Below, piece by piece: positions 42,794 to 51,185 of a DNA stretch of 62,336 nucleotides (position 1 is its first letter; each line of letters opens with the position of its first letter). The position numbers were made by a program, and so were the translations under genes. Source of the stretch: Candidatus Altimarinota bacterium (GTDB taxonomy: Bacteria > Patescibacteriota > Minisyncoccia > Phycocordibacterales > UBA5272); contig JAIPIK010000004.1 of NCBI GenBank assembly GCA_021734745.1, positions 1 through 62,336 on the forward strand, given 5' to 3'. The notes beneath the pieces were generated by a model that searched no databases, was not told the origin of the DNA, and saw only the letters and a list, made by a program, of their open reading frames with translations.

Positions 42794-45700
42794 ATGAACG
42801 ACAAACCAACACCAAAAACAATATCTGAAAAAGAACAGGAGATACTTGCTTTCTGGAAAGAAAATGAGATTTTTGAAAAGTCTATTGAAACTCCAGCAAA
42901 TGGAAAGTCGATAGGAGATTTTTCATTTTATGATGGGCCGCCATTTGCAACAGGGCTTCCACATTATGGTCACATTCTTGCAGGTACAATTAAAGATGCA
43001 ATTCCTAGATATCAAACCATGCAAGGAAAGTCTGTTCGTCGTAAATGGGGTTGGGATTGTCATGGTCTTCCAATTGAAAATTTGATCGAGAAAAAGTTAG
43101 GACTTAAAAGTAAAAAAGATATTGAGGATTTTGGTATTGATAAATTTAATCATGATGCGCATGAAAGTGTGCTTACTTATGATAGGGAGTGGAAGGAAAT
43201 CATTCCACGATTAGGAAGATGGGTTGATATGGATAGACCATATAAGACAATGGACGCAACTTATACAGAAAGTATTTGGTGGGCATGGAAGTCACTTTTT
43301 GAAAAAGGTTTAGCATATGAAGGAAATAAAATGATGCATGTATGTCCTCGTTGTGAGACGACACTTGCTCAGAGTGAGGTGGGTATGAATTACGAGGATA
43401 TTACAGATATATCCCTAACTGCAGAGTTCGAGTTAGTTGATGAACCAGGGACCTTTGTCCTCGCTTGGACTACAACACCATGGACTTTACCAGGCAACAC
43501 TGCACTTGCAGTTCATAAAGGTATTGTTTATGTAAAAGTAAAAAGTACTTTTGAAGAAAAAATAAATCATTACATTGTTGCGAAAACAAAAGTAGAGGAA
43601 TACTTTAAAGACAGTGAATCAACAGAAATAGTGGAAGAATTCACAGGAGATAAACTCGTTGGTAAATCGTACAAACCAGTATTTGATTATTTTATAAATA
43701 CAGATATTGAACACAAAGAAAATATTTTCAAAATTTGGCATGCAGATTTTATAACTGAAGAGTCTGGAACTGGTGTTGCTCATGAGGCACCTGCTTTTGG
43801 GGCCGATGATATGGAACTTGCAAAGTTGCACAATATTCCAATTATCAAGCATATTAAAATGGATGGAACTTTTATTCCTGCGGTAACAGATTTTGCTGGA
43901 ATGAAGGTGAAGGTCGCAGGTGATACTCAATCTGCTGATATTGAAGTTATAAAAAATCTTGCACACAGAGGTTTTCTTTTCGAAAAGCATAAAATAATTC
44001 ACTCATATCCATTGTGCTGGAGATGTAAAACTCCTCTTCTTAACTACGCAACATCATCATGGTTCGTTGATGTTCCTAAAATAAAAGAAAAGTTATTATC
44101 AGAGAATCAAAAGATTGGGTGGGTTCCTTCACATACTCGTGATGGACGTTTCGGTAAGTGGTTAGAAGGTGCTCGGGAATGGGCGGTATCACGTACACGA
44201 TACTGGGGGGCTCCACTTCCTGTTTGGAAGAATGAAGATGGTGAAGTTGTAATGATTGGTTCCCTCAAGGAACTTGCCGAAAATAATAAACAAAAGCCAA
44301 AAAATAATTACTATTTAATGAGACATGGCGAATCAATAAGTAATGAGAAAAGCGTATTGGAAACAAAAGGTGATCCGAATAATCATTTAACAGAAAAAGG
44401 AAAGAAGGAAGTGCTGGATGCTTTATCAGCTATTAAGTCGCTTGATATTGATATTATTATTGCATCACCATTTGTTCGTGCTCAAGAAACAGCAGATATA
44501 GTATCTTCGTTTTTGAATGTTCCAGTTATTACAGAGGAGAAAGTTCATGAATATGATATGGGTGATTTTAGTGGTAAATCTGCACAAGAATATTTGGACT
44601 ATTATGGGCACACATACTTACACTTTAACACTAGACCAAAAGGAGGGGAGACACATGAAGAGATGATGAATAGGTCCATGTCTGCGATTATGGATTTTGA
44701 AAATAAATATGAAGGAAAAAATATTCTAATTATTTCTCACGGTGGTCCATCACGTATGATGTTGATTGGAGGAGGTTTACATACCGAAGAAGAAGCTCTC
44801 GATGATGAGCGCGCTGTGATTACAACATTATATTTAGGAAATGCTGAAGTAAGAAAGTTAGACTTAAAACTTGTTCCCCGCGATGAAACAGGTGCAGTTA
44901 ATCTTCATCGTCCATACATAGACAAAATAGAACTTGAAATAAAAGGAAAAACATATAAGCGCATACCAGATGTTTTTGATTGTTGGTTTGAGTCTGGAGC
45001 AATGCCTTTTGCGTCAGTTCATTATCCGTTTGAAAACAAAGTAATTTTTGATAAAAATTATCCTGCAGATTTTATTGCTGAAGGGGAGGATCAGACAAGG
45101 GGGTGGTTTTATTCTCTTATCAATTTAGGCGTTGGATTATTTGATAAGGCCCCATTTAAGAGTGTAATTGTAAATGGTACAGTGCTTAATGATAAAGGCG
45201 AAAAGATGTCCAAGAGTGAAAATAATTATACAGACCCAATGATACTTGTAGAAAAGTATGGGGCAGATGCTATGCGTTACACTTTGTTATCAAGCCCTGC
45301 TGTAAAAGGAGAGAATTTGCAATTTAATGATGATAATGTTTCTGAGGTGTATAAAAAATTAATTAGTCGTCTTGAAAATGTTGTTTCGTTGTATGAGATG
45401 AATAAGCCTGAAAAAGTGGAAGCGAATAGTGCGTCTACAAATATTCTTGATAAATGGATGATAAGTAGAATACATGAACTAGTTAGAGATTCAACTAAAG
45501 GATATGAGTCATATATGTTAGATGATGCCACAAGGCCGATTACAGATATTATTGATGATCTTTCTGTTTGGTATACACGTAGGTCACGAGATAGATTAAA
45601 AGGAGACACCACTAAGGAAGACAAGAAAATGGCGTACGAGACACTGGCCTATGTTCTGGCAACTCTTTCAAAAGTTATGGCACCAGTAATGCCATTTATT

Positions 45701-46246
45701 GCAGAGAGAATATATCAGCAAGTTACAAACACAAAAGAAAGTGTTCATCTTACAAAGTGGCCAGTTGCAGGAATAATAGACGAGCAGATTATAAAAGATA
45801 TGAAAATTGTTAGAGAAGTCGTATCTCTAGGTTTGATGAAGCGTACAGAACATAAAATAAATGTAAAACAACCTTTATTATCATTAACAATAAATAAAAA
45901 AATTGATGAAGCATACTTTGACCTTATCAAGGACGAAATAAATGTTAAAGATGTGGTTGTTAATGAATCTCAAGCAGATGATGTAGTTCTCGATACTACT
46001 ATAACCAAAGAATTAGAAAGAGAAGGAGATATTCGTAAACTAATTCGTGCTGTGCAAGATATGAGAAAAGAAAAAGGACTCTCTTCACAAGATGTTATTT
46101 CAGTTTCTATCTCATCACTTTCAAATCTTGGTGATATATCACTCCTTACATCAACTTGTAAAATAAAAGAAATTAAGGAGGATAAAAACACAGAAGGTAT
46201 ATCAGTAGAACTTTCCTTTGGCTCTGTTGTTGTATTTATTGCTTAA
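42794..46246 (+). CDS. ileS: Isoleucyl-tRNA synthetase with inserted histidine-phosphatase-like domain
   Basis: 1150 aa. Class I motifs: GLPHYGHILAGTIKD and GEKMSKSENNYTDP, editing domain with WTTTPWTLPGN and an anticodon-binding C-terminus. Between EVVMIGSLKELAE (about residue 490) and NLHRPYIDKIEL (about 700) sits an extra stretch of about 190 residues with YLMRHGES (His511), IIIASPFVRAQETADI and LIISHGGPSRMM (His649), the hallmarks of histidine phosphatase/phosphoglycerate-mutase domains. The frame is continuous. Transcription is controlled by the T-box just upstream. The role of the insert is unknown; both catalytic His appear kept. Confidence 0.93.
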   Translation: MNDKPTPKTISEKEQEILAFWKENEIFEKSIETPANGKSIGDFSFYDGPPFATGLPHYGHILAGTIKDAIPRYQTMQGKSVRRKWGWDCHGLPIENLIEKKLGLKSKKDIEDFGIDKFNHDAHESVLTYDREWKEIIPRLGRWVDMDRPYKTMDATYTESIWWAWKSLFEKGLAYEGNKMMHVCPRCETTLAQSEVGMNYEDITDISLTAEFELVDEPGTFVLAWTTTPWTLPGNTALAVHKGIVYVKVKSTFEEKINHYIVAKTKVEEYFKDSESTEIVEEFTGDKLVGKSYKPVFDYFINTDIEHKENIFKIWHADFITEESGTGVAHEAPAFGADDMELAKLHNIPIIKHIKMDGTFIPAVTDFAGMKVKVAGDTQSADIEVIKNLAHRGFLFEKHKIIHSYPLCWRCKTPLLNYATSSWFVDVPKIKEKLLSENQKIGWVPSHTRDGRFGKWLEGAREWAVSRTRYWGAPLPVWKNEDGEVVMIGSLKELAENNKQKPKNNYYLMRHGESISNEKSVLETKGDPNNHLTEKGKKEVLDALSAIKSLDIDIIIASPFVRAQETADIVSSFLNVPVITEEKVHEYDMGDFSGKSAQEYLDYYGHTYLHFNTRPKGGETHEEMMNRSMSAIMDFENKYEGKNILIISHGGPSRMMLIGGGLHTEEEALDDERAVITTLYLGNAEVRKLDLKLVPRDETGAVNLHRPYIDKIELEIKGKTYKRIPDVFDCWFESGAMPFASVHYPFENKVIFDKNYPADFIAEGEDQTRGWFYSLINLGVGLFDKAPFKSVIVNGTVLNDKGEKMSKSENNYTDPMILVEKYGADAMRYTLLSSPAVKGENLQFNDDNVSEVYKKLISRLENVVSLYEMNKPEKVEANSASTNILDKWMISRIHELVRDSTKGYESYMLDDATRPITDIIDDLSVWYTRRSRDRLKGDTTKEDKKMAYETLAYVLATLSKVMAPVMPFIAERIYQQVTNTKESVHLTKWPVAGIIDEQIIKDMKIVREVVSLGLMKRTEHKINVKQPLLSLTINKKIDEAYFDLIKDEINVKDVVVNESQADDVVLDTTITKELEREGDIRKLIRAVQDMRKEKGLSSQDVISVSISSLSNLGDISLLTSTCKIKEIKEDKNTEGISVELSFGSVVVFIA

Positions 46247-47490: not shown

Positions 47491-49374
47491 ATGGACCCTA
47501 ATCACTTCCTCCACAAAAAACTCCCAGGCCTTCAGAAGTCTGAAGAAGTACAAGACGCGGTAGATAAACATAATCGTCTAACTGGTGAAAAGGTACCCAA
47601 CTCGGCAGAAGCGCGACTCGAAACATACATAAGTCGTTTAGAGAAGATATTCTTAAACGAAGATGAAGATACAAGGAATAGAAATATAGAAATGCTTCGA
47701 GAAAAGATTCATGAAGTCTTTGTAATTAAACGTGAAGACGTACCCGAAAGCTACTTTGACCTTCAAAAACGCGTAGCCAAAGAAAGAGGGGAACAAGTAG
47801 AAGAAATACCTGAGAACGTCAGGGAACAAATGATTACCGTCATAATTGAAGACCAAATCAAATCACTTGATTCTTGGATAGATTATCTTTCCTCAAATGA
47901 TGCTATGTACCCAACATGGTTTAAATATTTTGTATTTCGTAATATCACTAAGTTATCACAATTCGATAAAGAACTAGGAAAGTTTAAAGACAGAACAAAG
48001 AATACTACCGCACCATTCCCCGATATATATCGTGAGGCACTAGCCCAAGTATCTGACCTCTATGAATCCGCTTCACGAGATAAGTCACTCTTTCAAGACA
48101 AAGACTTCCAGACATTCCTTTCAAAGAAATTCCCAACTCAATACGCAGATAAGATACAGAAGACATTAGAACATTCACAAGAAGATAGAGAGCAAATAAA
48201 AGGAGAATGGATAAAGTATAGTCAAGGTGACAATGATGGTGCCCACGCGCTATATAAGTCACTAGAAAGTAAAGGTACTGGTTGGTGTACGGCAGGTTCT
48301 TCTACTTCCCAAACCCAAATTAAGTCAGGGGACTTCTATGTGTTCTATACTTATGATAAAGAAGGAAAACCCAATCAACCAAGACTTGCAATTAGAATGA
48401 ACGGAACTTCTACTATTGGTGAAGTCCGTGGAGTACTACCTCATCAAGAAGTAGAACCATTATTACAAGATACTTTAGATGAAAAGCTCTCGACCTTTGG
48501 TAATGAATCAGATAAGTATAAAAAGAAGTCGCAAGATATGAAATATCTAACAAAGATAGAAAAAGCTACACAAGACAATAAACAATTAACTAGAGACGAC
48601 CTTCATTTCCTATACGAACTAGATAGCAAAATTGAAAGCTTCGGTTACGAAGAAGACCCGCGTATCGAGGAAATTAAAAGTAAGAGAAATCGTAAAGAAG
48701 ATATCCAAACACTCTGTAATTGTCCACCTGAACACATCGCTACTGATTTCATAAATATTAACGAAAGCACACAGGTATATTGTGAAGATACAGGAAACAA
48801 AATTACTTTCTTTGACTTCCGAGAAGAAATAAATCAGAAGAAACTTCCTCAGATTATAGAACTTGCAAAGAGTATAAAAGAATCAGGAAGTCCTGCACGA
48901 CCAGATATGTCATTTGAGGGTGGAATAGTAAATATAGATATCGATAAAGAAAAGTTAAAAGACACAAAAACAGCATTACAATCATATAAAGAAGCAGATA
49001 ATAATTCACCCCACTACATTTGGAATGAATGGATAAATGCACCATACACTAAACCAAAGTTACCATTAGAAGCCATCATTCTTTCCTATAATAAAGATAC
49101 AAACACAAGAGATTCATCAGATAAAATAGTTGCCGATATGAGTAAATTAAATTTACGCCCTGCGACCTTAGAAGAAATGATTGCTCTTGGGATTGTTAAG
49201 CCAGAATTTAATAAACGAAGTGGTACATATCTTGTAGGGCTAACGAAGTATTCTCTGGATGGTGTTTCCCGTGTTCCGGTCTTGAACTGGCTTGGCGGCA
49301 GGCGTTTCTTGGATGGGAACAGGTGGTCGTTTGAGTGGGATGGTAGCATTCGGTTCGTTTGTGTCCGCAAGTAG
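47491..49374 (+). CDS. DGR target protein with C-terminal variable region
   Basis: 627 aa. About 480 residues of mostly helical, charged sequence contain a distinctive TGWCTAGSSTSQTQIKSG block near residue 265 with DFYVFYTYDKEG and LAIRMNG after it (a fold I cannot name with confidence; PcfJ-like is one idea). The last 130 or so residues look like a C-type-lectin/FGE-like module: PATLEEMIALG, GTYLVGL and RFVCVRK at the end. Codons of the last 39 residues form the variable repeat. An extended -10 TGATATACT ends 7 nt before ATG. No signal peptide is seen, so the target is probably cytoplasmic. Confidence 0.85.
   Translation: MDPNHFLHKKLPGLQKSEEVQDAVDKHNRLTGEKVPNSAEARLETYISRLEKIFLNEDEDTRNRNIEMLREKIHEVFVIKREDVPESYFDLQKRVAKERGEQVEEIPENVREQMITVIIEDQIKSLDSWIDYLSSNDAMYPTWFKYFVFRNITKLSQFDKELGKFKDRTKNTTAPFPDIYREALAQVSDLYESASRDKSLFQDKDFQTFLSKKFPTQYADKIQKTLEHSQEDREQIKGEWIKYSQGDNDGAHALYKSLESKGTGWCTAGSSTSQTQIKSGDFYVFYTYDKEGKPNQPRLAIRMNGTSTIGEVRGVLPHQEVEPLLQDTLDEKLSTFGNESDKYKKKSQDMKYLTKIEKATQDNKQLTRDDLHFLYELDSKIESFGYEEDPRIEEIKSKRNRKEDIQTLCNCPPEHIATDFININESTQVYCEDTGNKITFFDFREEINQKKLPQIIELAKSIKESGSPARPDMSFEGGIVNIDIDKEKLKDTKTALQSYKEADNNSPHYIWNEWINAPYTKPKLPLEAIILSYNKDTNTRDSSDKIVADMSKLNLRPATLEEMIALGIVKPEFNKRSGTYLVGLTKYSLDGVSRVPVLNWLGGRRFLDGNRWSFEWDGSIRFVCVRK
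49254..49370 (+). repeat. DGR variable repeat (VR)
   Basis: 117 bp aligned without gaps to 49738-49854. There are 17 mismatches, each at an A of the template, with A changed to G, T or C in 13 codons (for example AAC to GTC, AAT to CTT, AAC to TTC, AAT to TTT). The last 21 bp (49350-49370) are identical, the place of the IMH. Three more template A/VR non-A differences may lie just upstream (49251-49253). Confidence 0.95.
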
Positions 49375-49734
49375 CACTTAGATAGTAGTCACTTTGCTTT
49401 TGCTTTAGAATTTTTGGCTTTACCTTTTTTAATTTATCACTTTACTCTATACTTAAGTACGAGAGTAGATAATGGGTGTATGAATATTTTTATACAACAT
49501 CGAAATCAGTAGGGTGTAGATGAGAATTTTTGTATTTTGTCATTCCGTGCTCGACTGCGTCCAAGATGTGAATCTGCTGATTCAGGAATCTAGATTTGAT
49601 AATATAAAAAGAGTGTCTACATTTTGTTTCAAAAAAAGAAATCTACTTGGCGTAGTTATGTTAGACATTGTGATGTCGACTTAAATTCAACATATAGTTG
49701 CGACTGTGTGTGGTGGTTTGCATGTGTAACTACG
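49375..49734. other. Spacer between DGR target and template repeat
   Basis: No gene seen. It holds one CCAAGAT plus TGAATC-TGCT-GATTCA hairpin (49561-49584) and otherwise AT-rich sequence, including TATACTTAAGTA near 49450 that resembles the palindrome at 46257. Part of it may be the leader of the template-repeat RNA. Confidence 0.5.
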
Positions 49735-49854
49735 AAATCTGGATGGTGATTCCCATGTTCCGAACTTGAACTGGAATGGCGACAAGCGTAACTTGGATAG
49801 GAACAGGTGGACGAATGAGTGGAATGGTAACAATCGGTTCGTTTGTGTCCGCAA
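49735..49854 (+). repeat. DGR template repeat (TR)
   Basis: The donor copy, in the same orientation as the VR and 484 bp downstream. In the target frame it carries many AAY codons (seven Asn at variable sites), the usual TR design that lets A-mutagenesis give many residues but no stops. It is not translated here. The conserved 3' end contains GTTCGTTTGTGTCCGCAA. Confidence 0.95.
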
Positions 49855-49888
49855 TTTAATTTCTTTTTAAAAAATACATAGGCAAGAC

Positions 49889-50291
49889 CTATGTATTTTT
49901 CTTTCCCTTTTGCAATTCTAATTGTTTCTCAACTTGATTGTGCCAACCACCAAGCATTTTACCTATTTCATGTAATTTTTCAGAAAGAGTTATATATTGT
50001 TTGGTTTCAAATGCTTTGATATTGTGTGCTACATGAAGCATTATTTTTACGGTATCTAGTATTTGAATTGCTTTTTGAATATATGGTAATTTATTTTCTT
50101 TTTTCACAAAGAGTGCTGATGAAGTATATTGAATTACTTCACATAGTAACGTATCTATTTTTGCACCGAGTGAGTATCTATGAACTTTGGGAAAGTGTAT
50201 TATATATGAATGCCAAAGAGTGTAAGCAACTTCAAGTTTGAGGGTAAGAGGAGGGGTTGCGACTTCGCTTCGGGGGGGGGGTGAGATTCAC
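49889..50291 (-). CDS. avd: Avd-like DGR accessory protein (start phase-disrupted)
   Basis: The open frame carries HFPKVHRYSLGAKID, ENKLPYIQKAIQILD and ALHEIG-type end (SEKLHEIGKMLGGW), a four-helix Avd/CPR-DGR accessory protein. Avd binds reverse transcriptase and template RNA. In frame the first ATG/GTG/TTG-type codon is an internal GTG at 50107, too late to include helix 1. The only good upstream start, GTG at 50289-50291, lies across a run of 10 C (minus strand); with 9 or 12 C it would be in frame. It is divergent from the reverse transcriptase gene. Confidence 0.8.
50272..50281 (+). repeat. Homopolymer G10 tract between avd and RT
   Basis: Ten G on the plus strand, within the putative N-terminal coding part of avd. 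Length change by one would join the GTG start to the Avd frame. A rare GC-rich patch in this AT-rich window. Confidence 0.8.
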
Positions 50292-50293
50292 AG

Positions 50294-51185
50294 ATGTATT
50301 CATTTAAAAAATTGTACCATAGTATATGAAGATATAGTTACATTTGAAAATTTACTGGAAGCATGGAATGATTTTGTAAGTGGTAAAAGAAAAAGAATTG
50401 ATGTGAATGAATTCGCACAACATTTATCTGATAACTTATTTGATATTTTGGATGAATTAAAAAATGAGAGTTATGTACATGGAGTATATGAGGAATATGT
50501 TATTTGTGACACAAAGAAAAGAGTTATTCATAAAGCAAGTGTGAGAGATAGAGTGGTGCATCGACTGATTTATAATACTTTGTATGGTTATTTTGATAAG
50601 CGGTACATATATGATTCATATAGTTGTCGTATAGGAAAAGGGACACATAAAGCACAAGCGAGATTTAGACATTTTGTGAATATAGTGAGCAAGAATTATA
50701 CAAAGCCATGTTACGTTCTTAAATTTGATATTAAGAAATGTTTTGCAAGTATTGATACAAAAATACTTAAGAAAATAATTGATTGGCATATAGAAGATGG
50801 GCGATTAAAAAATCTTGTGTACAAAGTTATTGGTAGTTTTGAAGACGGACTACCACTCGGTAACTTAACATCACAATTATTTATAAATATTTATCTTAAT
50901 GAATTAGATTGGTACGTAAAACAAACACTCAAATGTAGCCATTATTTGAGATATGCAGATGACATAGTTATTATTTCTCACAACAAAGAAGAATTAGAAA
51001 CAATATATAATGATTTACAGTTTTTTCTTAAACAAGAATTACATTTAACAACCCATAAAAAAGTAATCTCCAGCATCTATTCCGGTATTGATATTTTGGG
51101 TTCAGTATTTTTTGCAAAGTATGAAAGATTGAGGAGAAGTACGAAAAGAAGGAAGAAATTTAGAGAATTATATAATAGTCAATAA
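50294..51185 (+). CDS. DGR-type reverse transcriptase
   Basis: About 290 aa of open catalytic frame (open from 50238). RT blocks: VHRLIYNTLYGYFDKRYIYD, YSCRIGKGTHKAQ, CYVLKFDIKKCFASID, GLPLGNLTSQLFINIYLNEL (the DGR-type LPxGNxTSQ motif) and YLRYADDIVIIS with the catalytic YADD. ATG 50294 starts MYSFKKLYHSI, typical of CPR DGR RTs, but runs into TGA at 50327; inserting one AT in the ATAT run there joins it to YEDIVTFENLLEAW. So the 5' end has a likely 2-nt deletion or slippage site. It copies the template-repeat RNA with A-specific errors. Confidence 0.93.

Follow-up and report, generated by a model that had tools for sequence, protein, structure and literature searches.

A conserved slippery repeat as a candidate on/off switch of diversity-generating retroelements in Patescibacteria

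To our knowledge, how diversity-generating retroelements (DGRs) are regulated in their natural hosts is largely an open question. The locus described here raises it in a particular form: what is the role of a run of ten G placed exactly between the 5' ends of two divergent DGR genes, the accessory gene avd and the reverse transcriptase (RT) gene? The locus lies in the window, by which we mean the whole stretch of 62,336 nucleotides that was analysed. From the sequence of this locus and of its relatives we consider it likely that the DGR is gated by a contingency repeat, i.e. a phase-variable repeat that changes length by strand slippage.

The retroelement and its genes

The locus is a genuine DGR on a Nomurabacteria-like (Patescibacteria) chromosome. 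An earlier note, made without database searches, had described it as a complete DGR that has been active in this lineage, and the alignment agrees with that description in all respects that concern the repeats. The target gene (47491–49374, plus strand, 627 aa) ends in a variable repeat (VR, 49254–49370, plus strand), which aligns without gaps over 117 nt with a template repeat (TR, 49738–49854, plus strand) located 484 nt downstream; the two differ at 17 positions that touch 13 codons, and their final 21 nt are identical. All 17 mismatches fall at an A of the TR, in which only 31 of the 117 bases are A (hypergeometric p = 2e-12). Mismatches at non-A template positions were looked for, and there are none among the 17. 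The identification as a DGR and the past mutagenic retrohoming proposed in the earlier note both hold. In the genome, the TR matches itself and the VR, and no further VR was found. The C-terminal domain of the target protein may be weakly C-type-lectin-like, as the top Foldseek matches of its structure model (pLDDT 63) are C-type lectins, with E about 0.02. The target genes of the window and of a related locus, L003 (5352–7034), have the C-terminal part in common and differ in the N-terminal part, which suggests that domains may be exchanged in front of the variable domain. Directly 3' of the TR, before the 3' end of avd, lies a terminator-like hairpin (49870–49900, plus strand) with a 13-bp stem and a T-rich tail, recognized by pattern match only.

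The RT is encoded on the plus strand, in an open reading frame listed as 50238–51185 of which the body occupies 50282–51185. It carries the two motifs reported previously, GLPLGNLTSQ and YADD, and matches RVT_1 at 1e-18 and the PHROG RT at 5.5e-85. A possible grouping with retron or group II enzymes was checked: the closest solved structure is the DGR RT of phage BPP-1 (8ub7, 4e-39), compared with 8.6e-10 or weaker for retron-type and group II RTs, and all NCBIfam group II, retron and Drt models score below their cut-offs. The avd gene (body with stop codon, 49889–50271) lies between the TR and the RT gene on the minus strand, divergent from the RT gene. Its product matches Pfam bAvd (1.3e-12, above the cut-off) and the PHROG family 'Avd protein of DGR' (3.6e-13), in keeping with the Avd-like gene of the earlier note; the match with NCBIfam DivGenRetAVD (1.2e-16, 60.9 bits) lies under the 80-bit cut-off of that model. 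The earlier note thus had the right set of genes, but overlooked that Avd is encoded on the minus strand and that a conserved slippery repeat precedes it.

The repeat between avd and the RT gene

The proposed phase-variable repeat is a run of ten G (50272–50281, between the two genes and assigned to neither strand; C10 on the avd strand). It is the sole run of at least nine G or C in the 960-kb assembly. Runs of nine G as a feature of DGRs only, true in the window genome, fail across the order. For example, runs of 10–13 G stand a few tens of bases ahead of genes whose products are apparently secreted (MKELTRSTL...AFYAINA; L242–L244, L247 in genome G147, and L235 in genome G110); these runs may resemble repeats placed as in promoter-type phase variation.

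The closest RT, with 78% identity, is that of Candidatus Nomurabacteria UBA11704 (L003, on the same contig as L023). The DGR of UBA11704 occupies the same chromosomal site, between ileS and recO, and has G11 at the matching spot. The isoleucyl-tRNA synthetase of the window (42794–46246) has a His_Phos_1 domain (1.5e-32) inserted in its catalytic part, at residues 507–657, and the ileS of L003 shows a similar segment. In the genus and family, seven further loci have G9–G11 (L025–L028 and L033–L035), and four loci of another RT clade have no run, their avd and RT start codons nearly abutting (L029–L032). Immediately ahead of the G run, L033–L035 have a perfect 12-bp hairpin (GAGCAGTTTTGC...GCAAAACTGCTC). 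The RTs of the same three loci have an in-frame insertion, VIPAEAGIQ...LDSRLRGNDK, just before GLPLGN, and a palindrome between the TR and avd of L003 (7545–7613) looks like the same repeat element as this insertion.

The order-wide search gave RT matches in 156 of 397 genomes, and 119 RT loci, three of them from a viral collection, were examined. A G run stands just before the RT in 107 of them and a C run in one; the G runs are 6–14 long, mostly 9–11, lengths that can be wrong when they come from short-read assemblies. A divergent avd-like open reading frame abuts the run in 104 of the 107 G-run loci. Six of the 11 loci that have no G or C run carry a GA repeat at the junction (L158, L160, L162, L169, L182, L199); the junction repeat is GT in L187 and CTGA in L181, L206 is cut by a contig end, and in L207 and L216 the repeat is absent or interrupted. 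In the phylum-wide set GA repeats are found in L259, L263, L264, L270 and L271, and a CT repeat in L250. In a FastTree tree of modest support, loci with the rarer units are nested within the G-run loci. Across 139 related DGR loci the junction is almost always occupied by a simple repeat whose unit is not a triplet, and no triplet unit was seen there; the 543,860 bases of these loci contain no simple repeat of comparable size outside the junction. Two other ideas were abandoned: roles specific to G, such as a quadruplex or ribosome binding, in view of the junctions with GA, GT and CTGA units, and a constant phase between the run and the avd core, which had seemed to hold in the nine loci examined first but failed in the larger set. 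A search for strains near enough for length polymorphism found none, the nearest pair (L189 and L194, 98%) having an assembly gap at the run.

Reading frames and repeat length

In the window, the conserved core of avd starts about eight codons past the run on its own strand, and the assembled frame contains no ATG, GTG or TTG upstream of position 50107, deep inside the protein. With a run of nine G, the avd frame would continue to an ATG (50303–50301) as MNTSVNLTPPRSEVATPPLTLKLEVAY; this proposed start and the N-terminal codons (50282–50303, minus strand) are in frame with the body only when the run is 9 or 12. The proposed ATG is preceded, at a distance of 17 nt, by a promoter-like site (50321–50350, minus strand; TTTTCA, 18 nt, TATACT), a match to the consensus only. 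For the RT, on the opposite strand, the sole start of the frame as assembled, with a run of 10, is TTG 50238, and from the run to the RT core this frame has no ATG, GTG or TTG. The proposed RT start, ATG 50210 (50210–50271, plus strand), lies to the left of the run and is in frame with the RT again only at 9 or 12. Another ATG, at 50294, 12 nt past the run and one base off the RT frame, opens MYSFKKLYHSI and then a stop (50294–50330); it may be a remnant of an ancestral RT start. It is because the G10 run shifts both frames that avd has no in-frame start and that the RT is left with a TTG. The word 'complete' in the earlier note therefore needs a qualification: in the assembled sequence, avd has no standard start from which its conserved core could be read, and the RT has only a weak TTG. 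These frames suggest that avd is probably OFF at the assembled length of 10, with RT synthesis left to the weak TTG. The case for a start switch is less strong for the RT than for avd.

The frames were then compared in the 129 loci with a clear avd body, by asking whether any length class of the repeat (modulo 3) gives avd an open frame as far as an ATG at most 75 nt away. Some class does so in 128 of the 129, compared with 70.3 +/- 5.5 when the flanks are shuffled (maximum 88 in 300 shuffles), and a single class is open in 110 loci; as the loci are kin, these counts are not independent. The excess calls for caution, because a His codon conserved in the RT can read as ATG on the avd strand. 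A stricter test restricted to the nearest CAT gave 97 open loci of 102, for 64.6 +/- 4.4 expected; in the 41 loci whose nearest CAT precedes the first RT start, the excess was small (39 of 41, for 30.6 expected and a maximum of 40). The RT and avd length classes agree in 12 of 12 cases, an agreement that we do not count as independent proof, since the codons of the two frames are in register where they overlap. The actual repeat length is in the open class in 37 loci and outside it in 91, no different from one-third. In L207 and L216, the avd frame is uninterrupted from an ATG in the equivalent position; together with the two G6 loci they are all in frame (4/4), compared with 35 of 126 for longer repeats (p = 0.007, relatedness ignored). 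In L181, stops close all frames of the (CTGA)n repeat on the RT strand and none on the avd strand, and avd is therefore the gene that could read through the repeat.

Between the window and L023, dN/dS is 0.10 for the RT and 0.10 for avd, and at neither run length is avd in frame with its ATG; the RT and avd are thus under purifying selection even where out of frame, and are not decaying genes. A-only TR/VR pairs were found in 115 of the 129 loci, with a median of 16 changes, so these DGRs have worked. VR divergence is alike in ON and OFF loci (mean 16.2 vs 15.7). MutS was not found in the window genome and is absent from 59 of the 61 genomes searched; the absence of MutS should raise slippage at such runs.

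These observations can be accommodated by a model in which slipped-strand errors during replication would change the length of the repeat. In the right length class Avd would be translated and, in the subclade of the window, the RT would perhaps be made from its ATG as well; the RT–Avd complex would then make copies of the TR RNA that carry errors at A, and the VR would be rewritten. The remaining lengths would leave the DGR off. The capacity for hypermutation would itself be a heritable state, set at random and reversible. In BPP-1, Avd is an essential component of the DGR (PMC12875486), and avd OFF should therefore mean DGR OFF. At G loci where the RT start lies 13 nt past the run, the repeat could also affect RT transcription. 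With somewhat less assurance, we favour extending the model to a large Patescibacteria clade, in which DGRs would be contingency loci and a single hypermutable non-triplet repeat, where the 5' ends of the divergent avd and RT genes meet, would randomly switch targeted hypermutation, via the avd frame and, depending on the subclade, via the RT frame or the RT promoter.

Other roles of the repeat can be envisaged. It might be noncoding, a promoter spacer or another DNA or RNA element with the starts of avd and RT downstream of it, its length tuning transcription. In 40 G loci the distance from the run to the RT start is exactly 13 nt, and in 31 of these TANNNT adjoins the run on its RT side, as might be expected of a leaderless promoter of the RT gene; on the avd side a GTG or TTG is present downstream of the repeat in 73 of the 129 genes and an ATG in 15 (the avd of L023, for instance, has an in-frame GTG at its run length of 11). 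However, 41 of the 129 avd genes have no ATG, GTG or TTG within the first 15 codons past the repeat, that of the window having its first one at 50107, and a noncoding repeat accounts neither for the opening of avd to an ATG beyond the repeat far above shuffled flanks, nor for the uninterrupted avd of L207 and L216, nor for the frames of L181, open on the avd strand and closed on the RT strand. We judge a purely noncoding role unlikely; a role of the repeat in the RT promoter could nevertheless be compatible with switching by frame.

Alternatively, the repeat might be a site of programmed transcriptional slippage, on which RNA polymerase stutters to give constant low expression at every length, with no switch. 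G runs of 9–11 can be slippery for RNA polymerase, and stuttering would explain why out-of-frame lengths are frequent while selection on the genes continues; the perfect hairpin just before the run in L033–L035 also fits with it. Against it, the repeat at several loci is built of GA, GT, CT or CTGA units instead of G, and such units are not usual slippage sites for RNA polymerase. Since di- and tetranucleotide units replace G, slippage during replication is favoured over slippage of RNA polymerase, and we regard the latter as quite improbable. Finally, frame breaks caused by homopolymer errors or by pseudogenization, to which the error-prone nature of G runs, the N at or beside the junction in L153, L194 and L265 and the out-of-frame ATG at 50294, hinting at a lost RT start, could be related, are very improbable given that over 100 loci, drawn from many assemblies, have the repeat in this position, that dN/dS is 0.10 and that di- and tetranucleotide forms exist.

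Relation to known systems

The DGR of Bordetella phage BPP-1 (mtd, avd, TR, brt) resembles that of the window in its A-only TR/VR differences, its Avd protein, the C-terminal position of the VR and an RT homologous to bRT (8ub7). The order of the reconstituted BPP-1 operon is avd–TR–brt, and a spacer RNA separates TR from brt (PMC12875486), whereas the window has a divergent avd placed between TR and RT, a terminator-like hairpin just behind the TR and a slippery repeat between avd and the RT gene. Cell-encoded DGRs are known in Patescibacteria as DGR clade 2 (Roux et al., 2021; PMC8144416); the locus studied here, cell-encoded and from the same phylum, is presumably a member. The main text of that article does not mention homopolymers, phase variation, frameshifts or Avd, and the repeat is not part of its description. 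In the open-access literature searched, we found neither a description of a DGR under repeat control or phase variation nor one of phase variation in Patescibacteria, and a slippery repeat at the start of DGR genes appears to be new to description.

If the model is correct, replication slippage controls many DGRs of a very large bacterial radiation. A lineage would diversify a binding protein as long as its DGR is ON, and would freeze a good variant once the repeat slips to an OFF length. A hypermutation machine would thereby join the functions subject to phase variation, and repeat-based phase variation would be shown in Patescibacteria.

The closest parallel for the repeat itself is provided by the contingency loci of Neisseria, Campylobacter and Haemophilus, in which the variable length of a non-triplet repeat, located at the 5' end of the coding sequence, sets a gene ON or OFF by frame (PMC8437040); lav, with its GCAA(n) repeat, is an example (PMC9022572). 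The DGR loci resemble them in having a non-triplet repeat at the 5' end, at least one length class that is open (in 128 of 129 loci, with the reservation about the His codon), and lengths that are in or out of frame from one genome to another. Those examples switch surface structures or methyltransferases, whereas here the proposed switch would act on a part of a hypermutation machine.
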